DNA of 64,000 nt from Cenococcum geophilum 1.58 (Eukaryota > Ascomycota > Dothideomycetes > Gloniales > Gloniaceae). The translations under genes and the position numbers were made by a program. The notes beneath the pieces are model-generated. The model worked only from the letters and a program-made list of their open reading frames with translations. It ran no database searches and was not told the DNA's origin. Position 1 is the stretch's first letter, and each line of letters opens with the position of its first letter. Shown here in pieces: positions 49,239 to 64,000 of this stretch. The stretch covers positions 868,001 through 932,000 of the forward strand of contig KV748227.1 of NCBI GenBank assembly GCA_001692895.1, read 5' to 3'.

Positions 49239-51437
49239 TTACTTCTGGAATTCCGCCTCGCCGACAGGCTTCCGATGAACCGGCGCCGGGCTCACCAGGC
49301 TTATAGGACTGACATTGTACGGCTGCTGGGGCGGCGGTGATCCAGAAGCAGCATACCGCTGCGGCGCTACCATTCCACCTGCAACAAGCTCGGGGACAGC
49401 ATATTGCTGCGATGGACTCATTGCACTCCCAACGACAGTCGCGTTTCCCGCTTGCGGAAACTGGGATTGCATTGGCACAGGCGGACGCTCTTGCTCATCG
49501 CTCTTCTTGCGGCGTCCGAACAATCGGACGCGAGGCAGATGATGAGGGCTATGAGGGCTATGAGACGGGTTCTGGCTGGGGTTCTGGCCTGGCTGAGATG
49601 GATCGGTGCCGTTTTGGTTTGGAGGTGGGTCACATTGATTTGGATGGGACGGATCAGCTTGATTTGGATGTGACGGATCAGCTTGGTTTGGATGTGACGG
49701 ATCAGCTTGGTTTGGATGGGACGGATCAGCTTGGTTTGGATGGGACGGATCGGCTTGGTTTGGATGGGACGGATCAGCTTGGTTTGGATGAGAAGGATCA
49801 TATTGATTAGGGTGCGAAGGATCGGCTTGGTTTGGATGTGAGGGATCAATTTGGTTTGGATGGGAAGGATCGGCTTGATTGGGGTGCGATGGATCAGCTT
49901 GGTTAGGGTGTGAAGGATCCGGTTGATTATAGTTTGGCTGTTGCTGTGATGGATCTGTTTGATTCGGGTGGGACGGATCTTGCTGATTCCAGTTTTGGTG
50001 ATTGGGATCTTGCTGATTGAAATTCTGGTGCGAGGGGTCGGACTGGTTGTAATTCTGGGGGGTGTTCCCATCGTTCTGAGGTTGGTTCGGATCACCATCT
50101 TTACCAGGTTTGCCTCCCTTGCCGGGTGGATGCACTGGCGGTGGCATCGCCCAACCAGGGTGCGTATTCATTGGCTGCGAAGTAGGCAGAGCAGAGGATG
50201 TTTGCACCATTGGCTGCTTAAAGGTGGGATCAATTTGGGGTGGACCCGGTGTATACGCTGGTGGTGAGGTCCCTAGGCCTGGAATGCTTTTCCAGTATTT
50301 CCAAAGGAAAAACGAGCCGGCCCCAATAAGGCCAACAATCAATGGTACTGAAATCCCAATGCCAGCTTTCGCACCAGCCGTGAGCCCACCGCTTGAGCCT
50401 GCTTGAGCCAGAGTGCAGTTCTCGATGGGAATGGATGAGTTGACACCGATGATGAACAAACCATTTACCTGGTTCGACGTGGTGGAGACTTGGAGTTTCA
50501 TATCGCCAGATGTAGCAGCGGTGACGACAAGAGTATCGGTGAAGTTTGAAAAAACCGATGTCTTGCCGAGTTGTTTACCATTTGCATCATCAGCTGTTAC
50601 GTCCATGTCGCCAGCAGTTACGCTGGTAATTGTGAACGTGACTCGCTCTTTGGCCTGCGCATTGTACATAAGAGTGCTGCTGCCCGAACCTGACAGAGCT
50701 GCAGCAAGAGATAGCCCGTTGACCAGAGTGGTGGAGTCTTTTGGAGAGGGATTGTCATCATCAGTCAACCCATGGACGATCATAAGATTAACAAAACTGT
50801 TCTGTGCTGTTGCGCCGTCGATCGTTGCATACATCCCACCGGTGCTCAGGATAGCAGTGAGAACAGAAGGATCTTGGAACGATGTATCGTAGGTAAGGAA
50901 GCCAAAAGACACTCGAATTCCTAGGCTGGTGCAATTGTTGATTGACTCAACCAGGGTAACTGTATCTGAATCTTCTCCATCGGTGAAGACGACAATGCCC
51001 GAGCGATTGGATGTTGTGCCATGGCCAGATTTAGTAAGCTCACTGGTGGCCATGTCAACACCATCAGCGATGAAAGTGCCTCCAAGAGCACCGATTTGGC
51101 TGAAAACGCCGTCCGCTCCCGACGGATCTCCGAGGGGGTAGAGAAGCGTCGCAGAATCGTCGAAGCTCACGACGGTAACCAAGTCTTCCTTCTTGCTCCC
51201 ACTCGCTTCTTTGGAGGTGATAAGCCAGTCATTTACAGCTCGCCCAGCAACTAAACGCAGGTCTTCAGGGTCCGTGGACGCCATTGAGCCGGAGCTGTCA
51301 ATGACAATGCCGATTTTTCGGTCTCCATTATTGGAATTTGCTTGGAGATTCTTGCAGGTCGGTTGGCCACGAGGAACAAGGGGCGATGCAGAGGTGATGG
51401 CTGCCAAAAAGAGGCACGCAACGAGACTGAACTTCAT
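49239..51437 (-). CDS. Von Willebrand factor A domain membrane protein with octapeptide repeats
   Basis: 732 aa from the ATG at 51437. It was chosen over an in-frame ATG 33 codons upstream because it begins directly with a signal peptide (MKFSLVACLFLAAITSAS). The VWA domain spans about 41-225 with an intact MIDAS metal site: D47-x-S49-x-S51, T121 and D153. A second, beta-rich extracellular part (250-345) has N-glycosylation sites. A single membrane helix (about 359-379, GISVPLIVGLIGAGSFF) ends in KYWK. The cytoplasmic tail is Pro/Gln/Asn-rich with twelve DPSHPNQ-x units (507-602), then a basic patch (FGRRKK, about 645) and a Pro-rich end. The topology suggests a surface adhesion or sensor protein with a disordered tail; ligand unknown. 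Single exon, intact. Confidence 0.85.
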   Translation of the reverse strand: MKFSLVACLFLAAITSASPLVPRGQPTCKNLQANSNNGDRKIGIVIDSSGSMASTDPEDLRLVAGRAVNDWLITSKEASGSKKEDLVTVVSFDDSATLLYPLGDPSGADGVFSQIGALGGTFIADGVDMATSELTKSGHGTTSNRSGIVVFTDGEDSDTVTLVESINNCTSLGIRVSFGFLTYDTSFQDPSVLTAILSTGGMYATIDGATAQNSFVNLMIVHGLTDDDNPSPKDSTTLVNGLSLAAALSGSGSSTLMYNAQAKERVTFTITSVTAGDMDVTADDANGKQLGKTSVFSNFTDTLVVTAATSGDMKLQVSTTSNQVNGLFIIGVNSSIPIENCTLAQAGSSGGLTAGAKAGIGISVPLIVGLIGAGSFFLWKYWKSIPGLGTSPPAYTPGPPQIDPTFKQPMVQTSSALPTSQPMNTHPGWAMPPPVHPPGKGGKPGKDGDPNQPQNDGNTPQNYNQSDPSHQNFNQQDPNHQNWNQQDPSHPNQTDPSQQQPNYNQPDPSHPNQADPSHPNQADPSHPNQIDPSHPNQADPSHPNQYDPSHPNQADPSHPNQADPSHPNQADPSHPNQADPSHPNQADPSHPNQADPSHPNQCDPPPNQNGTDPSQPGQNPSQNPSHSPHSPHHLPRVRLFGRRKKSDEQERPPVPMQSQFPQAGNATVVGSAMSPSQQYAVPELVAGGMVAPQRYAASGSPPPQQPYNVSPISLVSPAPVHRKPVGEAEFQK
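49632..49919 (-). repeat. 12 x 24-bp coding minisatellite
   Basis: Twelve uninterrupted units encode DPSHPNQ plus a variable eighth residue (mostly Ala; also Ile, Tyr, Cys). More degenerate DPxHQNxNQ units lie just upstream in the protein. The 24-bp unit keeps the frame when copy number changes. Confidence 0.92.
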
Positions 51438-52733
51438 AATGGCAAGATGGGCTTGCAAAGTCGCACAGAGCAGGCAACGAAGTGCGGGACAAGGCCATAA
51501 TAATAATAGAAGGCTCGCGAGGCCCCTTCCAGCCAAGGCTTTTCAGCCGTACGGGAGACCCATGTTGTCGAAGAGGATCGAGCGCGCGCGCCATCAAACC
51601 ATTGCGATAGAGACGTCTTAGCATGGCAGTTTAGTTACCTCGTGATAAGGCGCAGGCAAAGCCAATTGGTAGGGGATCAGGGCGATACGGGAGGACTGGA
51701 AGGGGCTCGAACAGGGAAGAGTAAACGATGGCTGAGGTCGAGCTCTTCAAATGAGTCGCGACATTCCCAGAATGAAAAGTTGTGGTGGTCTTGCCAAGCG
51801 CACGCCCCATACCCATCCATGCCCGTCTCGAATCAGCTCGCGAGAAGAGCGCGAACAGCTGCTCAGCCCCATTATTGCCAAGCAGGGGCCATAGGGGTTT
51901 CGGCGGCATCGGCCATTCTCGACCAGCGCTTTTGTGAGTAATAGGGCTGAGACAAGACGGGCAATTCCCTCGAAATACGAATTTTAGGCGATAACAACTG
52001 GTCGTATTGTGTGAAAGTACTAGGCCGCAATGCTTTTTAGAGCCGACATGATAAGAGAGCTGTCAATCAACCAAGCACCAAGACCGCCAGCTTGACTACT
52101 GACCTGACCTACCGCTGATGACCACCGCGTTTGATGTGATGCAAGGTGGAGGACCGAACCTCATTAGTGGAGGGCCTGTTAAGCTTACTGCCCTTAGTCC
52201 AGAACCTTAGTCTAGAACCTTATTATCACTTCCCGCCACTCACTTCTGCAGTAGCTGTGTTCGCCGTGGGGTTTTTCCTACCCTCTTTTTTTCCGTGGTA
52301 TAACTTGCGTGAACCAGGCGGATTTGGCCCAACGCGGGCTCCCTCAATCGTCGCCACGAAAAATTATCGCCAGAGTGTTGACACTTTCTAAACAGGATAT
52401 TGAGGGAGCTTTATACAGTTCTCTCGATTGGACAAACACCTCTTAAAGACCTCTCTGCAGCTGCAAAAGATGTACCTTAACTCTTCCGGTACTCACGCTA
52501 AACTACCACTATAATGTATGTCACTCCGATCCTCTAGTACGAACGCTAACTGTGCCTTGTACAACGTAGCATATATATAACTATTTCATCATACACCTTG
52601 GAGTCCTTTAGTATCTCTACAGGTCGAGTAGAGATTTGAAAATGAAATATATTACGCTTGAAGATTCTACACCTTGTAGATCACCAGATTGCCACCCTAG
52701 TAGGACTTGGAATTCTGTAGCTCTCGGTCATTC
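51438..52733. other. Upstream of the VWA gene to the edge of the island
   Basis: About 1.3 kb of normal composition. It should contain the VWA gene promoter; a (TAA)n run of four to five units occurs near 51497-51509. Short open frames exist on both strands (51631-51941, 52146-52391), but they overlap, have no recognisable features and no homologue I can name, so I do not call them. Confidence 0.5.
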
Positions 52734-52928
52734 TGTTGGTTACACAAGGGGATATCACGTAGCTACGGTTCGTAGATAGTATGATGATTGTTGTTTTCTT
52801 TCTTGAAGAAAGGGGTGAGGAACTTAAGGTTCCTCACCACGCTAGTGCCGCGGCGGCACGTGATGGCAACTTGCCACACGTGACGGCAATATGCCTCATA
52901 TGGTAACCATTTGCCTTTATTCCCAACA
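52734..52928 (-). repeat. Copia-3 3' LTR at the island boundary
   Basis: On the minus strand it runs from TGTTGGGAATAAAGGC (52928) to AACCAACA (52734), 195 bp. It is related to the 173-bp Copia-1 LTR: the first part and the GCGGCACTAGCGTGG block match. It keeps many CpA/TpG, so it is much less RIP-altered than the LTRs on the left. The next five island bases (52729-52733, CATTC) would be its target duplication. Confidence 0.8.
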
Positions 52929-55499
52929 CTGGCAACTCTTCTTTTATGGTTGCCATCTATATATATATACCGCTTAACTAGCGGAACAAAAATTAATCCT
53001 CCTTACTTACTATTGCCATTATAATATAAGTCTTGCTGTTCTAAAATTTACCTCTTAGCATGTGGTGCTTTCTTGCTTATAAGTTATAGGTAGGTATTAG
53101 AGGTCTAGGTTAGGCTTAGCATAACCTCGGGTTACGCACAACCCCCTAAGGTCCGCGACATATCGTCTAAATATCACCCCCCCCTTTTGGTAGTGGCCCC
53201 TACTTTTTAGACGCGTTTTTAAGGCCTAAGTTAGTACTAGGTTAGTATAGAGGACCTTGTCGCGCGCCTTCGACCTTATCATCGCCTCAATAATCCATTT
53301 TTTAACCCTCTTCCTATTCTTATACCTGCGCTAGCTCCTAGCTCGCGCGGGGCTTCTAGTTTTATATAGAACGGCCTACTATAATTCTAATTCTATAATA
53401 TAGAGCTCTCTTCTTCTCCTTCTCTATTAATATTTACACGTTTAGTAGCTTTATTTACCTATACCTACGCTACGCTTACGCGTCTTCCCCCTAACCTCTT
53501 ACAGAGATAGAGTCTTTTAAGAATCTTCTTACCCTATAGTCTACTTTGTAGTTAAAGGAAGCCCCCCTAGCCTCCTCCTCCCCCTCTTTCTATAGCCTCT
53601 AGAACGAATTCAAGGCCTAGATAGTATGGCTATACGATATTTATAAGGCCTAGCGCTTAAAGAATACTATAAGGGCGTATAAGCCAAAGTAGAAAGAGTA
53701 GAAAGACTAGTACGCAAGACTAAAAGGTAATATAGACAGCGCCCAGGTAACAGAAGATAAGCTTTACCTATTTTTAGAGTAGTAAGTTATTAACTAAAAA
53801 TTATGGGCTGCTAGTTATTAAAAATGGAAGTTAAAACGGAAAGAGATATAGAAAGATAGCGAGTAGGCGAAGAAGAGGTAGAAGACGGTTAAGCGGGTAG
53901 GGCAGCTAGAGGGAAAGTTAGCCGTAGGGGCAGCCGTAGGGGTAGCTATAGGGGCAGCTATAGGCACAGGGGAGGAAGCTATAAAGGAGGAAGGGGAGAT
54001 ATAGGATAAGGAGGCCCTAGACGCCCTATTTAACGAGATAGTCTAATACTTAGTTATAAATAGCTACGTCTTCGCTATTACCGAGCTTTACGTATAGTAG
54101 TTAAAAGGTAAAACCTTATAGCCGCTATAGGGGGCAAAGCTCTTAGCAGTACTAAATAGCGTCTGCTATAATAAGGACTAAATTTAACGCGTTAACTTTA
54201 TTAATTAAGGCCTATTTATAATTACTAGCGGCTATAACATTAAAGGGCTTAAAAAGGCAATTACTTAATGCTAGAAGACGGGCTCTAAGATACTAGGTTT
54301 AGTTAAGTCTTACCTTTAAACTATAGCTAAACATTTATTAGGTTTGTATATACCCTACCCAGTCTATATAGCTGCCGTTTTCTAACCCGTTCCTTAGGCT
54401 ATACTACTATTACCCGTAGTAAAAGTAGATAAGACGTTTAGCTTACTAACCTTATTCTTATTAAACTAGAGAATAAAAGGCCTAAACTGAATAAGTTAGC
54501 GCTGTATATAATTATATTAATAATATAAGGGAAGCAGAATTAGTATAGCAAGGTTAAGTATATAGACTATATACGGAACGCTAACCCTATCCTCTACCCC
54601 CTCTCTATAGTAGCCTTCTACTTCTTTAACCGCTAGGGTAAAGATAGCGCTAAGAGCTTCCTATCCTTTTAGTAGCTAAAGGACTACTATAACCTATATA
54701 TCTTCCCTAGCAATATTAAAGTACCATAACGGCCGCTAAGCTATTATATATAGTGTAAATAGAATAAAAAGATGTTTTAGGGGGTAGAAATTTACTTAAA
54801 GGAGAAGACCTATAGCGCCTATAAGTAGAGCGTCCGGTATACTAAGCTTAGCGGCGTTAAGGAGACCTAAATTAAATAGGCCGAACGCTAAAATATGGAT
54901 GCAATAATAGGAGCCTACCTTAGCTACCTACCCTATACGTTTATATGGTTGATTACCGGCTTCCTAAAGGAAGAAAAGGGCTACTTTCTCCCCTACGCAC
55001 GGAAGGTGCTAGAGGAGGCCCTCTATTTAAAGATATGGCCTAAGACTAATATCTAGCTAAAACGCATAGAGGCCTACTACCTAGGTAGGGCCAATAATAA
55101 GGTTATACGGCTTAACCTTACGGGCTTAGGATTTCTACGCCTCCTCTACGCGCTTAGGGTAATCCTATTATAGGACTTAGTAATCCTACGCAAGTAGTTC
55201 CCGCTCTACCCCCTATAGAAAAACCCCCTTTTTAGCTGTAAGGAGTACCGGAGGTTTACTACGCGGGTAAAAAGCTCGCTAGCTAATATAGTTACGCTAA
55301 ATAAGCTAATAATGCGGAAATACTAGCCTACCTATAAGGCTGTAGCTAAACTAAGATATAAGGCCGCAATCTCCAAGATAAAGGGGGTTTAATTACGCGT
55401 GTAGACGATTTTAGAACGCCTTAGCGAAATAGAAAGGTTATTAGTATTATTCGCACCTATATAAATTTAGTAAGGGAAGACAGGTATCTAAATAGGGCC

Positions 55500-55760
55500 T
55501 ATAGAGTCCGTACGTCCACCTTTAGGCAAGCCCGCGCCGTCTACTATAGCGTTTACTATATTTACGCCGCCTACTTTACCGTTTATAATATCTATACTAC
55601 CTACTTAGCCGCCGTCTATAATATCCGCACCGTCCGCTTAGCCGTCTACAATATCCGCACTATTTACTTAGCTGTCTATAATATCTGCACTATCCGCTTA
55701 GCTGTCTATAATATCCACACCACCTATTTAGCTATCTACTATATCCGTATCGCCCCTATT
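55500..55760 (+). repeat. Pro/Ser-rich coding repeats in Crypton-like copy 1
   Basis: About seven to eight units of roughly 30 bp (CCGTCTATAATATCCGCAC and variants), encoding a repeated S-x-I-S-A-P-x-x-Q-type linker between recombinase and DNA-binding domain. The same array occurs in copy 2 (about 59.12-59.37 kb) and copy 3 (about 62.70-62.93 kb). Confidence 0.75.
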
Positions 55761-56109
55761 AGCGCAGGTATAAGCTAATACTTAACTATCTCTCCTATTT
55801 ATCCTTAACCTATAGGCGCCGCTAAGGAAATATAAAATACTTTAAGGCGGTAATTTGGTCTTCTAGCTTTAGACTAAGTAGACTTTAGGGCTAGTAGGTA
55901 GGCCGTTAATTAAAGCTCTTAATCGCTACTAGGGGGCATACTAGTAGGTTAACGGCGAGGCTATATTCTATAGCCGTTACTATAGGATAATTAAGGATAT
56001 AAGATAGCGCGTAGAAGACGGTATGGTAAGAGATAAAAGATAGGCTATTAACCAGCTAGAACAGCTACAAGGTTAACGTTCTTTAAATTAGCTTTATAAG
56101 AATATCTAA

Positions 56110-56465
56110 ATAGTTATTTTACTATAGTAACTAAGACGCCTTAATATATAACTGCACTATAGTAACTAAGACGCCTCTATATACAATTGCACTGTAGTAA
56201 CTAAGACGCCTTAATATATAACTGTACTATAGTAACTAAGACGTCTTAATATAGGACTGTATTAGTAACCGAGACGTTTTAATATAGGACTACACTATAG
56301 TGACCGAGACGCCTTAATATACGACTGCACTATAGTGACTGAAACGTCTTAATATAGGACTGCACTACATTAACCGAGACGCCTTAATATAGGACTATAC
56401 TATAGTGACCGAGATGTCTTAATATAGGACTATATTATAGCAACTAAGACGCCTTAATATAGGAA
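56110..56465 (+). repeat. ~36-bp noncoding minisatellite, copy 1
   Basis: About ten units around a core of AGTAAC(T/C)(A/G)AGACG(C/T)CTTAATATA with an ACTGCACTAT-like lead. It lies just after the coding region. The units differ mostly by transitions. Confidence 0.85.
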
Positions 56466-56583
56466 TAGAGCCCGTTTAGGTGTTATAAATTTAGAGTAAT
56501 ATTACGCGACCGTCTAGAAGTACCGATTTAATATAAATTATATACCTTTTCGCCTAAAATCGCGTGCGAAAGTACTTGGGGGC

Positions 56584-56598
56584 GGTCGCTGCGCGACC
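56584..56598. repeat. Hairpin near the Crypton-like 3' end
   Basis: GGTCGC-TGC-GCGACC. Conserved in copy 2 (60190-60204, loop TAC) and copy 3 (63751-63765), about 100 bp before each TAGGTAT junction. Confidence 0.7.
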
Positions 56599-56700
56599 TT
56601 ATATAGGGTTTAGGCGCGTTATTAGTAGGAGTGGCCCTAACCTCGTATTAACCTGGGTTATAACCGCGCCAAATTAGCCCCCCTGATATGTGATAGGTAT

Positions 56701-59700
56701 TAAAGGTCTAGGTTAGGCTTAGTATAACCTTAGGTTACGCATAACCCCCTAAGGTCCGCGACATATCGTCTAAATATTACTCCCCCCTTTTAGTAGTGGC
56801 CCCTACTTTTTAGACGCGTTTTTAAGGCCTAGGTTAGTACTAGGTTAGTATAAAGGACCTTATTACGCGCCTTTAACCTTATTATCGCCTTAATAATCTA
56901 TTTTTTAACCCTCTTTCTATTCTTATACCCGCGCTAGCTCCTAGCTCGCGCGGGGCTTTTAGTTTTTTTATATAGAACGGCCTACTATAATTCTAATTCT
57001 ATAATATAGAGCTCTCTTCTTCTCCTTCTCTATTAATATTTACGCGTTTAGTAGCTTTATTTACCTATACCTACGCCACGCTTACGCGTCTTCCCCCTAA
57101 CCTCTTACGGAGATAGAGTCTTTTAAGAATCTTCTTACCCTATAGTCTACTTTATAGTTAAAGGAAGACCCCCTAGCCTCCTTCTCCTCCTCTTTCTATA
57201 GCCTCTAGAATGAATTTAAGGCCTAGACGGCACGGCTATACAATATTTATAAGGCCTAGCGCTTAAAGAATACTATAAGGGCGTATAAGCTAAAGTAGAA
57301 AGAGTAGGAAGACTAATACGTAAGACTAGAAGGTAATATAGATAGCGCCCAGGTAACAGAAGATAAGCTTTACCTATTTTTAGAGTAGTAAGTTATTAAC
57401 TAAAAATTATGGGCTGCTAGTTATTAAAAATGGAAGTTAAAACGGAAAGAGATATAAAAAGATAGCGAGCAGGCAAAGAAGAGGTAGAAGACGGTTAAGC
57501 GGGTAGGGCAGCTAAAGGGAAAGTTAGCCGTAGGGGCAGCCGTAGGGGCAGCTATAGGGGCAGCCGTAGGTATAGGGGAGGAAGCTATAAAGGAGGAAGG
57601 GGAGATATAGAACGAGGAGGCCCTAAACGCCCTATTTAACGAGATAGTCTAATACTTAGTTATAAATAGCTACGTCTTCACTATTACCGAGCTTTATATA
57701 TAGCAGTTAAAAGGTAAAACCTCATAGCCGCTACGGGGGGTAAAGCTCTTAGTAGTACTAGACAGCGTCTGCCGCAATAAGGACTAAATTTAACGCGTTA
57801 ACTTTATTAATTAAGGCCTATTTATAATTACTAGCGGCTATAACATTAAAGGGCTTAAAAAGGTAATTACTTAGTGCTAAAAGACGGGCTCTAAGATACC
57901 AGGTTTAGTTAAGTCTTACCTTTAAACTATAGCTAAGCATTTATTAGGTTTGTATATACCCTACCTAGTCTATATAGCTACCATTTTTTAACCCGTTCCT
58001 TAGGCCATACTACCGTTACCCGTAGTAAAAGTAGATAAGATATTTAGCTTACTAACCTTATTCTTATTAAACTAGAGAATAAAGGGCCTAAACTAGATAA
58101 GTTAGCGCCGTATATAATTATATTAATAATATAAGGGAAGCAGAATTAGTATAATAAGGTTAAGTATATAGGCTGTATACAAAACGCTAACCCTATCCTC
58201 TACCCCCTCTCTATAGTAGCCTTCTACTTCTTTAACCACTAGGGTAAAGATAGCGCTAAGAGCTTCCCATCCTTTTAGTAGCTAAAGGACTACTATAACC
58301 TATATATCTTCCCTAGCAGTATTAAAGTACCGTAACGGCCGCTAAGCTATTATACACAGTTTAAATAGAATAAAAAGATATTCTAGGGGGTAGGAATTTA
58401 CTTAAAGGAGAAGACCNATAGCGCCTGTAAGTAGAGCGTCTGGTATACTAAGCTTAGCGGCGTTAAAAAGACCTAAATTAGATAGGCCGAATGCTAGAAT
58501 ATAGACGCAATAATAAGAGCCTACCTTAGCTACCTACCCTATGCGTTTATATAGTCGATTACTAGCTTCCTAAAGAAAGAAAAGGGCTACTTTCTCCCCT
58601 ATACACGGAAGGTGCTAAAGGAGGCCCTCTATTTAAAGATATGGCCTAAGACTAACGTCTAGCTAAAACGCATAGAGGCCTACTACCTAGGTAGGGCCGA
58701 TAATAAGGTTATATAGCTTAACCTTATAGGCTTAGGATTTCTACGCCTCCTCTATACGCTTAGGGTAATCCTATTATAGGACTTAGTAATCCTACGTAAG
58801 TAGTTCCCGCTCTACCCCCTATAAAAGAACCCCTTTTTTAGCTGCGAGGAGTACCAAAGGTTCGCCGCGTGGGTAGAAAGCTCGCTAGCTAATATAGTTA
58901 CGCTAGATAAGCTAATAATGCGGAAATACTAGCCTACCTATAAGGCCGTAGCTAAACTAAGATATAAGGCCGCAATCTCCGAGATAAAGGGGGTTTAATT
59001 ACGCGTGTAGACGATTTTAGAACGCCTTAGCAAAATAGAAAGGTTATTAGTATTATTCGCACCTATATAGATCTAATAAGGGAAGACGGGTATCTAAATA
59101 GGGCCTATAGAGTCCGTATATCTACCTTTAGGCAAGCCCACGCCGTCTACTATAGCGTTTACTATATTCGCGCCGCCTACTCTACTATCTATAATATCCG
59201 TACTACCTATTTAGCCGCCGTCTATAATATCCGCACCGTTTACTTAGCCGTCTATAATATCCGCACTATCCGCTTAACCGTCTATAATATCCGCACTATC
59301 CGCTTAGCTATCTATAATATCCGCACCACCTACTTAGCCGTCTACTATATCTACATTACCCCTACTAGCGTAGGTATAAGCTAATACTTAACTATCTCTT
59401 CTATTTATCCTTAACCTATAGGCGCCGCTAAGGAAATATAAAATGCTTTAAGGCGGTAATTTAGTCTTCTAGCTCTAGACTAAGTAGACTTTAGGGCTAG
59501 TAGGTAGGCCGTTAATTAAAGCTCTTAATCGCTATTAGGGGGCATACTAGTAGGTTAATAGCGAGGCTATATTCTATAGCCGTTACTATAGGATAATTAA
59601 GGATATAAGACAGCGCGTAGAAGACGGTACGGCAAGAGATAAGAGATAGGCTATTAACCAGCTAGAACAGCTACAAGGTCGGCGTTCTTTAGATTGGCTT

Positions 59701-60306
59701 TATAAGAATATCTAAATAGTTATTTTACTACAGTAACTAAGACGCCTTAATATATAACTGCACTATAGTAACTAAGACGCCTCTATATACGATTATACTG
59801 CAATAACTAAGACGCCTTAATGTATAACTGTACTACAGTAACTAAGACGTCTTAATATAGGACTATACTAGTAACTAAGACGTCTTAATATAGGACTGCA
59901 CTATAGTAACCAAGACGCCTTAATATACGACTGCACTATAGTGACCAAAACGTCTTAATATAGGACTGCACTGCATTAACCGAGATGCCTTAATATAGGA
60001 CTATACTACAGTAACCGAGATATCTTAATATAGGACTATACTATAGCAACTAAGACGCCTTAATATAGGAATAGAGCCCGTTTAGGTATTGTAAATTCAA
60101 AGTAATATTATATAACCGTCCAGAAGTACCGATTTAACACAAATTATATACCTTTTCGCCCAAAATCGCGTGCAAAAGTACTTAGGGGCGGTCGCTACGC
60201 GACCTCATATGGGGTTCGGGCGCGTTATTAGTAGGGGTGGCCCTAACCTTATATTAACCTAGGTTATAACCGCGCCAAATTAGCCCCCCTAATATGTAAT
60301 AGGTAT
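56701..60306 (+). mobile_element. Crypton-like transposon, tandem copy 2
   Basis: 3606 bp, head-to-tail with copy 1, bounded by TAGGTAT at 56694-56700 and 60300-60306. Same order of parts as copy 1 along its whole length. Differences are mainly C/T and G/A, as from RIP. It contains the only ambiguous base of the window (58417). Inactive. Confidence 0.72.
59724..60072 (+). repeat. ~36-bp noncoding minisatellite, copy 2
   Basis: Same array as at 56110-56465 with the same number and order of variant units, including the short unit with a missing segment (ACTAGTAAC). Confidence 0.85.
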
Positions 60307-63300
60307 CGAAGGTCTAGGTTAGGCTTAGCATAACCTTAGGTTATATACAACCCCCTAAGGTCCGCGATATATCGTCTAAATATTACCCCCCCCTTTTGGT
60401 AGTAGCCCCTACTTTTTAGACGCGTTTTTAAGGCCTAGGTTAGTACTAGGTTAGTATAAAGGACCTTATCGCGCGCCTTTAACCTTATTATCGCCTTAAT
60501 AATCTATTTTTTAACCCTCTTCCTATTCTTATACCCGCGCTAGCTCCTAGCTTATATAGGGCTTCTAGTTTTATATAGAACGGCATACTATAATTCTAAT
60601 TCTATAATATAGAGCTCTCTTCTTTTCCTTCTCTATTAATATTTACGCGTCTTCCCCCTAACCTCTTACGGAGATAGAGTTTTTTAAGAATTTTCTTACC
60701 CTACAGTCTACTTTGTAGTTAAAGGAAGCCCCTTTAGCCTCCTCCTCCCCCTCTTTCTATAGCCTCTAGAACGAATTTAAGGCCCAGACAACACGGCTAT
60801 ATAATATTTATAAGGCCTAGCGCTTAAAGAATACTATAAGGGCGTATAAGCTAAAGTAGAAAGAGTAGGAAGACTAGTATATAAGACTAAAAGGTAATAT
60901 AGATAGCGCCTAGGTAACAGAAGATAAGCTTTACCTATTTTTAGAGCAGTAAGTTATTAACTAAAAATTATAGGCTGCTAGCTATTAAAAACGGAAGTTA
61001 AAACGGAAAGAGATATAGAAAGATGGTAAGTGGGCGAAGAAGAGGCAGAAGACGGTTAAGCAGGTAGGGCAGCTAGAGGGAAAGTTAGCCGTAGGGGCAG
61101 CCGTAGGGGTAGCTATAGGGGCAGCTGTAGGCACAGGGGAGGAAGCTATAAAGGAGGAAGGGGAGATATAGGATGAGGAGGCCCTAGACGCCCTATTTAA
61201 CAAGATAGTTTAATACTTAGTTATAAATAGCTACGTCTTTACTATTACTAAGCTTTATATATAGTAGTTAAAAGGCAAAACCTTATAGCCGCTATGGGGG
61301 GCAAAGCTCTTAGTAGTACTAGATAGTATCTACCGTAATAAGGACCAAATTTAACGCGTTAACTTTATTAATTAAGGCCTATTTATAATTACTAGCGGCT
61401 ATAACATTAAAGGGCTTAAAAAGGCAATTATTTAGTGCTAAAAGACGGGCTCTAAGATACTAGGTTTAGTTAAGTCTTACCTTTAAACTATAGCTAAGTA
61501 TTTATTAGGTTCGTATATACCCTACCTAGTCTATATAGCTGCCGTTTTCTAACCCGTTCCTTAAGCCATACTACTATTACCTATAGTAAAAGTAGATAAG
61601 ACGTTTAGCTTACTAACCTTATTTTTATTAAACTAGAGAATAAAGGGCCTAAACCGAATAAGTTAGCGCCGTATATAATTATATTAATAATATAAGGGAA
61701 GCAGAATTAGCACGGCAAGGTTAAGTATATAGGCTATATACAGAACGCTAACCCTATCCTCTACCCCCTCTTTATAGTAGCCTTCTACTTCTTTAACCGC
61801 TAGGGTAAAGATAGCGCTAAGAGCTTTCTATCCTTTTAGTAGCTAGAGGACTACTATAACCTATATATCTTCCCTAGCAGTATTAAAGTACCATAACGGC
61901 CGCTAAGCTATTATACGCAGTTTAAATAGAATAAAAAGATATTCTAGGGGGTAGGAATTTACTTAAAGGAGAAGACCTATAGCGCCTATAAGTAGAGCGT
62001 CTAGTATACTAAGCTTAGCGGCGTTAAGGAGACCTAAATTAGATGGGCTAAACGCTGGAATATAGACGCAATAATAGGAGCCTACCTTAGCTACCTACCC
62101 CGTGCGTTTATATAGTTAATTACCAGCTTCCTAAAGAAAGGAAAGGGCTACTTTCTTCCCTACACACGGGAGGTGCCAGAGGAGGCCCTTTATTTAAAGA
62201 TATAGCCTAAGACTAACGTCTGGCTAAAACGTATAGAGGCCTACTACCTAGGTAGGGCCAATAATAAGGTTATACAGCTTAACCTTACGGGCTTAGGATT
62301 TCTACGCCTCCTCTATACGCTTAGGGTAATCCTATTATAGGACTTAATAATTTTACATAAGCAGTTCCCGCTCTACCCCCTATAGAAGGACCCCCTCTTT
62401 AGCTATAAGGAGTACCAGAGGTTTGCTACGCGGGTAAAAAGCTCGCTAGCTAATATAGTTACGCTAGATAAGCTAATAATATAGAAATACTAGCCCGCCT
62501 ATAAAGCTGTAGCTAAACTAAGATATAAGGCCGCAATCTCTAAGATAAAGGGGGTTTAATTACGCGTGTAAATAATCTTAGAACGCCTTAGCGAAATAAA
62601 AAGGTTATTAGTATTATTCGCACCTATATAGATCTAGTAAGGGAAGACAGGTATCTAAATAGGGCCTATAGAGTCTGTATATCTACCTTTAGGCAAGCCC
62701 ACGCCGTCTACTATAGCGTCTACTATATTCGCGCCGCCTACTCTACTGTCTACAATATCTATACTACCTACTTAGCCGCTGTCTATAATATCCGCACCGT
62801 CCGCTTAGCCGTCTATAATATCTATACTATCTACTTAGCTATCTATAATATCCGCACTATTTACTTAGCTATTTATAATATCCGTACCGCCTGTTTAGCC
62901 GTCTACTATATCTATATTGCCCTTACTAGCGTAGGTATAAGCTAATACTTAACTATCTCTTCTATTTATCCTTAACCTATAGGCGCCGCTAAGGAAATAT
63001 AAAATGCTTTAAGGCGGTAATTTGGTCTTCTAGCTCTAGACTAAGTGGACTTTAGGGCTAGTAGGTAGGCCGTTAATTAAAGCTCTTAATTACTACTAGG
63101 GGGCATACTAGCGGGTTAACGGCGAGGCTATATTCTATAGCCGTTACCGTAGGATAATTAAGGATATAAGACAGCGCGTAAAAGACGGTACGGTAAGAGA
63201 TAAGAGATAGGCTATTAACCAGCTAGAACAGCTACGAGGTTGGCGTTCTTTAGATTAGCTTTATAAGAATATCTAAATAGTTATTTTACTATAGTGACTA

Positions 63301-63867
63301 AGACGCTTTAATATATAACTGCACTATAGTAACTAAGACGCCTCTATATACAATTATACTGTAATAACTAAGACGCCTTAATATACGACTATACTATAGT
63401 AACTAAGACGTCTTAATATAGGACTATACTAGTAACCGAGACATCTTAATATAGGACTACACTATAGTAACCGAGACGCCTTAATATATAACTGTACTAT
63501 AGTGACCAAAACGTCTTAATATAGGACTGCACTGTATTAACTGAGACGCCTTAATATAGGACTATACTATAGTGACCGAGATATCTTAATATAGGACTAT
63601 ACTATAGCAACTAAGACGCCTTAATATAGAAATAGAGCCCGTTTAGGTGTTGTAAATTTAGAGTAATATTACGCGACCGTCCAGAAGTACCGATCTAATA
63701 TAAATTATATACCTTTTCGCCCAAAATCGCGTGCGAAAGTACTTGGGGGCGGTCGCTGCGCGACCTTATGTGGGGTTCGGGCGCGTTATCAGCAGGGGTG
63801 GCCCTAACCTCGTATTAACCCAGGTCGTAACCACGCCAAATCAGCCCCCCCGATATGTGATAGGTAT
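60307..63867 (+). mobile_element. Crypton-like transposon, tandem copy 3
   Basis: 3561 bp, bounded by TAGGTAT at 60300-60306 and 63861-63867. It lacks about 42 bp near 60650 that copies 1 and 2 have. Otherwise collinear, with the same recombinase, linker and GCR1_C-type regions. It is followed directly by the continuation of Copia-3. Inactive. Confidence 0.72.
63287..63640 (+). repeat. ~36-bp noncoding minisatellite, copy 3
   Basis: Third copy of the array seen at 56110 and 59724, with matching variant order. Confidence 0.85.
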
Positions 63868-64000
63868 CTTATTAGTAGGGCCACTAAGGCGCTAGCGGTA
63901 AGCGAGCTAATAGCGATTTTCTATCCTGGGGATGGAAAATCCTAATTGGCTAGTTTAAGTTAGGGTCTGCAGAATCTAACTAATTAGATAACTTTAACCG

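Follow-up and report, generated by a model that had tools for sequence, protein, structure and literature searches.

CryptonF elements encode a recombinase-type protein together with a GCR1_C domain, have no terminal inverted repeats and are credited with a circular form, which was proposed by analogy (Kojima and Jurka 2011, PMC3212892). Fungal Cryptons mostly carry 6-bp terminal direct repeats, and a resemblance to CryptonF proteins has been noted for the C-terminal and central parts of Cbf2/Ndc10 (PMC3212892). In that paper the word 'tandem' occurs once, in the title of a P-element reference, and 'head-to-tail' is absent. The Starships are likewise moved by tyrosine recombinases, and no circle had been reported for them; amplification of a circle of the Starship Sanctuary was attempted by its authors and was unsuccessful (PMC12506042). 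The last six bases of Sanctuary, ATACCT, are conserved in the element, and its empty sites read ATWHCT (PMC12506042). The passages of that paper covered here contain no tandem array.

The window, a stretch of 64,000 nucleotides of Cenococcum geophilum (C52:868001-932000 in an assembly of 177.2 Mb and 162 contigs), contains three units of about 3.6 kb in direct tandem, with TAGGTAT at 53091, 56694, 60300 and 63861 and periods between successive motifs of 3603, 3606 and 3561. An earlier, sequence-only reading of this DNA had described three head-to-tail units bounded and joined by this motif; all four positions were confirmed, and in the BLAST alignments and end mapping the units abut with zero bases in between. 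Units 2 and 3 have 92.9 % and 91.5 % identity, respectively, to unit 1 over the length of unit 1 (BLAST). The features of the array and its flanks, with window coordinates, are as follows.

52893..53092, + strand: left flank, dispersed target repeat (200 bp compared), which aligns with the empty copy L039
53091..53097, + strand: left outer end, TA assigned to the target and GGTAT to the element (outer-left-end counts, empty sites)
53093..56695, + strand: putative Crypton unit 1, GGTAT ... GATA, 3603 bp (BLAST and end mapping)
54394..55248, + strand: Crypton recombinase region (NDC10_II) in unit 1, interrupted by stops (Pfam E 4.5e-20, stops as X)
55579..55747, + strand: 30-bp minisatellite of unit 1; further copies at 59188-59351 and 62749-62899
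56121..56464, + strand: 35-bp minisatellite of unit 1, close to its right end; further copies at 59727-60070 and 63288-63629
56694..56700, + strand: inner join 1, ..GATA directly on GGTAT.. (join pattern, C52:924681-924714)
56696..60301, + strand: putative Crypton unit 2, 3606 bp (BLAST and end mapping)
57997..58857, + strand: Crypton recombinase region (NDC10_II) in unit 2, interrupted by stops (Pfam E 1.7e-21, stops as X)
60300..60306, + strand: inner join 2, built as inner join 1 (join pattern, C52:928287-928320)
60302..63862, + strand: putative Crypton unit 3, 3561 bp (BLAST and end mapping), with a private 42-bp gap close to its left end
61558..62418, + strand: Crypton recombinase region (NDC10_II) in unit 3, interrupted by stops (Pfam E 1.6e-23, stops as X)
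62998..63237, + strand: possible remnant of GCR1_C in unit 3 (Pfam E 0.0023; at 18.6 bits below the cut-off of 23)
63861..63867, + strand: right outer end, TA assigned to the element and GGTAT on the target side (at other loci more often GATAT)
63863..64000, + strand: right flank, in which the same target repeat resumes (alignment with L039)

The frequency of TAGGTAT was dropped as evidence, because its count in the 64-kb window (36 observed, 41.5 expected) was not above chance. On the + strand of the array it is also found away from the unit ends, at 57567, 59371, 60083 and 62932. The non-random part is its position exactly where a right end (..RATATRTRATA) meets a left end (GGTATYRRAGG..). 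Unit 2 has one ambiguous base, N, at 58417, and a separate tandem repeat of 24 bp in about 12 copies (85 % matches) lies at 49635-49919 of the window.

Stops interrupt the forward frames of unit 1. With stops read as X, the NDC10_II domain (PF16787) was matched in all three units, in agreement with the sequence-only reading of them as Crypton-like, whereas the other domain expected of a Crypton, GCR1_C, was weak, sub-threshold and seen in unit 3 only. Both domains were above the Pfam cut-off in two less decayed copies (L016 and L027). In a relative on contig C137 (L041), with about 81 % DNA identity to unit 1 over two stretches, an open frame of 587 amino acids matched NDC10_II with E 1.2e-52 and GCR1_C with E 5e-16. 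Because a recombinase domain combined with GCR1_C is the CryptonF architecture, the window units are classified, on their predicted domains, as decayed CryptonF-type elements of one high-copy family. The protein of L041 contains THSAR, GRW and AYL in this order, putative catalytic motifs which may represent the R-H-R-Y catalytic set, a reading made by motif rather than from an alignment to a known Crypton. Of five read-through copies, four have another residue in place of the H of HxxR and the fifth cannot be read there (N), and none of the five retains the R; judged by the same motifs, an intact catalytic set appears to be visible solely in L041 among the sequences inspected.

Beyond NDC10_II and GCR1_C, the Pfam scan of the forward frames gave only sub-threshold matches (two Gly-zipper, one DUF3782). 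A Starship identity was rejected on the unit length of 3.6 kb and the absence of DUF3435 from the forward frames scanned, those of L041 included. No match was obtained in an NCBIfam search and no significant match in a PDB sequence search, which for L041 listed only CBF3A chains (E 1.6 and 1.9). Ndc10/CBF3A is the namesake of NDC10_II, but it is an immobile kinetochore protein of the host. The predicted structure of the read-through recombinase region had a mean pLDDT of 32.7 and was useless as a model. Inverted repeats of at least 40 nt were absent from positions 50000-64000. A 6-bp CCGATA/TATCGG pair straddles the fused ends, and a hairpin at this place was rejected as not significant (z -0.78). 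The ends themselves carry an imperfect 6-bp direct repeat, AGGTAT at the left and an AGRTAT-like sequence at the right. The likeness to CryptonF consists of an NDC10-like recombinase domain, GCR1_C, short direct repeats and the lack of terminal inverted repeats, whereas the repeats here are usually unequal (AGGTAT at the left, AGATAT or another sequence at the right) and the family here forms 53 clusters of head-to-tail joins.

These clusters were found with a 34-base pattern of a right end joined to a left end, which had 72 matches in the genome; the reversed pattern, used as a control, had 0. The matches form 53 same-strand clusters, of which 37 contain one join, 13 two and 3 three, with spacings of 3.4-4.1 kb between the joins of a cluster. 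Tandem arrangement is not rare in this genome. The earlier remark was that tandem Crypton arrays are not commonly described; among the papers listed in a literature search, titles and abstract beginnings gave no account of them, and no paper on Cryptons in C. geophilum was found. Odd inner joins among the matches listed include two with TAGATAT, and one, at C18:1086891, has AGGTAT twice in succession.

The clusters do not always consist of whole units, as both clusters on C78 pair a whole copy with a 291-bp fragment, and one locus may be represented by more than one cluster. Region L015 (C78:487041-495080) is an inverted duplication with two tail-to-tail copies; this 291-bp element fragment stands before each of them, as does an 820-bp flank, the two flanks being 94 % alike. 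The arrays on C113 and C119, at or near contig ends, have in common many mutation states and a 12-bp gap that is otherwise present only in the diverged subfamily; they are perhaps one locus on two contigs.

The two sides of the element differ in what they carry. Among copies found by BLAST, all 18 outer left ends read GGTAT, the base two positions before it being free. On the other side, only 2 of 21 outer right ends read GGTAT, with GATAT in 7 and other variants after ..GATA in the remainder, one of them CAGCT; a G follows the cut in 20 of the 21. Searches by pattern gave a similar picture. Left ends, inner and outer pooled, read GGTAT in 209 cases against GATAT in 5 (one control match each), three of the latter being outer. 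Among the matches listed, A preceded GGTAT in 67 of 71 outer left ends and T preceded that A in 40 of the 71. The right-end pattern retained 93 of the 100 matches listed, the other seven being other repeats; the 66 outer right ends among the listed matches comprised GATAT (29), GGTAT (10), GGTAG (7) and others (20), with the double join on C18 counted as inner (if it is included, outer right ends number 67 and GGTAT 11).

The target is a dispersed repeat whose empty sites resemble AGTTATAGGTAGATATCGTGTTAGGGCC (234 places in the genome with at most 3 mismatches, control 1). Among 100 listed empty sites, the sequence following TA or TG was GATAT in 83, AATAT in 9, GACAT in 5, GGTAT in 1 and another in 2. 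When joined, the window flanks align along an empty copy, L039, and the site itself has neither gained nor lost a base; L039 contains six extra bases 13 bases further right of the site. Window-like right flanks are also found at C7:324262 and C2:5930230, the left flank at the C7 locus being different. An empty target copy at C46:1179567 has GGTAT instead of the usual GATAT, possibly as an excision footprint or by substitution.

Since empty sites usually read TA|GATAT, the left TAGGTAT is assigned to the element and the outer right GGTAT to the target, and the single conserved TAGGTAT target of the sequence-only reading is not borne out by the empty-site check which that reading itself had proposed. 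By the end counts, the element is best described as GGTAT ... GATA with the crossover placed at AG, and what ends and target share is mainly the A before and the G after the cut. The four TAGGTATs of the window array are thus not equivalent, and its outer right GGTAT, the less usual form, may stem from a variant target or from the resolution of a mismatch. In a tetramer of the diverged subfamily on C43, three inner joins have GGTAT and the outer right end has GATAT, so that the element-borne and the target-borne motif can be told apart at one locus. On the opposite strand, the Sanctuary sequences ATACCT and ATWHCT read AGGTAT and AGDWAT, and both systems have the same hexamer with the same one-sided inheritance. 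Sanctuary, however, is a giant element that carries cargo and a captain recombinase, with forms of 47.5 and 72.7 kb, as against units of 3.6 kb here.

The fusion of element ends without target DNA points to a site-specific, circle-type reaction, as the sequence-only reading had proposed, with the 72 exact joins in its favour. If an inserted copy were simply duplicated, target DNA would be carried along, and the exact fusion fits a recombinase circle; a double-stranded circle as the transposition form is what we infer from the end-to-end joins. Excision of the element by a tyrosine recombinase would yield a circle that joins ..GATA to GGTAT.., and the circle would integrate at T-A|G-R-T-A-T with crossover at the shared AG. 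A crossover at this position would leave the new copy with the element's GGTAT on the left and with bases of the target on the right, as in the end counts and empty sites. Tn916-type conjugative transposons also integrate as circles, in a tyrosine recombinase reaction whose overlap ('coupling') sequences are unlike. They may serve as an analogy for circle integration with unlike overlaps, although they are bacterial and have another protein architecture.

Rolling-circle transposition of the Helitron type, which also leaves copies in head-to-tail order, would fit both the arrays and the inheritance of target bases on one side. Helitrons are marked by 5' TC, 3' CTRR and an A|T target; the ends and target found here do not resemble these, and the forward frames scanned gave no Pfam match to Rep or helicase, on which a Helitron identity was rejected. 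Transposition of this type is considered very improbable.

Among 31 aligned copies the mean difference was 10.7 % in transitions and 0.27 % in transversions, with few CpA/TpG, which points to a family of recent origin that has undergone RIP-like mutation. The mutator is called RIP-like rather than RIP because CG is the commonest context among sites still variable (508 of 1087). Array copies had mutated states at 0.46-0.49 of interior positions and single copies at 0.35, and GC was 0.385 in array copies against 0.426 in single copies (P 0.0005; 16 single and 15 array copies, partial ones included). In a hand-grouped sample of 9 single copies and of array ends (right, 7 outer and 7 inner; left, 3 outer and 10 inner), mutated states in the last 40 alignment columns rose from 19/90 (single copies) and 16/70 (outer right ends) to 37/70 (inner right ends); at the left end the corresponding figures were 8/81, 8/27 and 56/90. 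Over the 93 listed right ends, 2.9 of 4 positions were mutated at inner and 1.2 at outer ends (P 8e-7), and CG was intact in 34 of 66 outer but only 2 of 27 inner ends. Mutation thus fades toward the edge of the repeated block, and inner joins are treated as interior.

These figures bear on whether copies of a dispersed repeat were merely stacked by the assembly, which the high copy number and the arrays at or near contig ends on C113 and C119 might favour. A misjoin of normal ends would show the mutation level of outer ends, whereas inner joins are far more mutated both in the fetched copies and among the listed ends, and an artefact is therefore regarded as extremely improbable. With inner joins mutated like interiors and outer ends spared, the arrays look real, not misassembled, and older than much of the mutation.

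The origin of the copies within an array was assessed with 18 variable transversion and indel characters in the main subfamily of fetched copies (n = 27), which includes five arrays with 12 copies; the diverged copies C56, C80, C70 and C51p were omitted and the C43 array lies outside the alignment. The summed within-array haplotype distance was 3, compared with a permutation mean of 37 and minimum of 12, and none of 20,000 permutations was as low. Array-mates differed by 0 or 1, the mean over all pairs being 4.1, and window units 1-3 were the same in the haplotype characters, each with private changes. With one haplotype per array, each array seems to derive from a single progenitor, although gene conversion ahead of mutation could be an alternative source of the uniformity. 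The sequence-only reading had envisaged repeated integration of independent circles, in which circles of different copies integrate successively at a resident's AGGTAT. Exact TAGGTAT joins would then be expected, the resident's left end itself copying the site, but the family contains many haplotypes and each of the five arrays only one, so that this explanation is decidedly unlikely.

Alternatively, one dimer made by the recombinase could have grown to trimers and tetramers by unequal crossing-over, which is ordinary in any tandem repeat and would account for clonality and for up to four units. The first dimer is nevertheless beyond the reach of crossing-over, which needs a prior duplication, as had been pointed out before, and 37 of the 53 clusters contain a single inner join. 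Furthermore, the middle copy of the window trimer has no left/right hybrid pattern, and 13-32 % of variable sites differ in every 420-column bin, so no exchange after mutation is visible, although earlier exchange may have taken place. Growth by crossing-over is on balance unlikely. Mutation states common to mates and rare elsewhere exceeded the maximum of 60 random groups in only three of five groups, and of all pairs the oppositely oriented C21a and C21b have the most mutation states in common; common states of neighbours may therefore mean pairing or local mutation, not descent. This pair lies in region L009 (C21:1965958-1973143), its two copies tail to tail about 40 bp apart, with one haplotype and apparently unrelated outer flanks.

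Clonality argues for a local source, either the resident's circle or a multimeric circle. The preferred reading, to which a probability of about 0.65 is assigned, is local clonal build-up from one CryptonF-type element followed by RIP-like mutation. After excision and integration as above, a circle derived from the resident by excision or copying would rejoin the resident's end or, alternatively, a multimeric circle would integrate in one event; a RIP-like process would then mutate the array, joins included, and break the recombinase.

A bolder version, replicative transposition via concatemeric circles, would have the circle amplified and monomers to tetramers inserted at once, and is put forward as a tentative possibility, somewhat on the unlikely side. 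If it were true, every array would be a snapshot of one circular intermediate, overlap inheritance would be one-sided, and a second NDC10_II class in this genome would do likewise. In this class, 48 of 109 selected matches stand in 19 same-strand runs of 2-4, the 109 having been chosen by eye from 125 listed and the run count having no chance expectation behind it; the 16 dropped mostly matched the part of the profile that belongs to the window family, the others including two short pieces and the open frame on C17. The runs lie on contigs C70, C51, C37, C3, C80, C89, C49, C29, C21 and others, and the period is mostly near 2.9 kb, with 25 of 29 spacings in the range from 2.8 to 3.0 kb. No joins of this class were found, the left regions L009 and L018 aligning only partly and giving no clear end. 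The NDC10_II matches at C57:1085004 and C126:1152 have equal scores and stop counts, perhaps from a duplicated contig end.

Exact fusions of element ends, present by the dozen in a single genome, provide sequence evidence for a circular form, and the end counts locate the crossover at AG and indicate which repeat is element-borne. The contrast between spared outer ends and mutated inner joins offers a natural gauge of how far RIP-like mutation reaches toward a homology boundary. The apparently clonal arrays pose a new question, namely how an element modelled as cut-and-paste multiplies beside itself.
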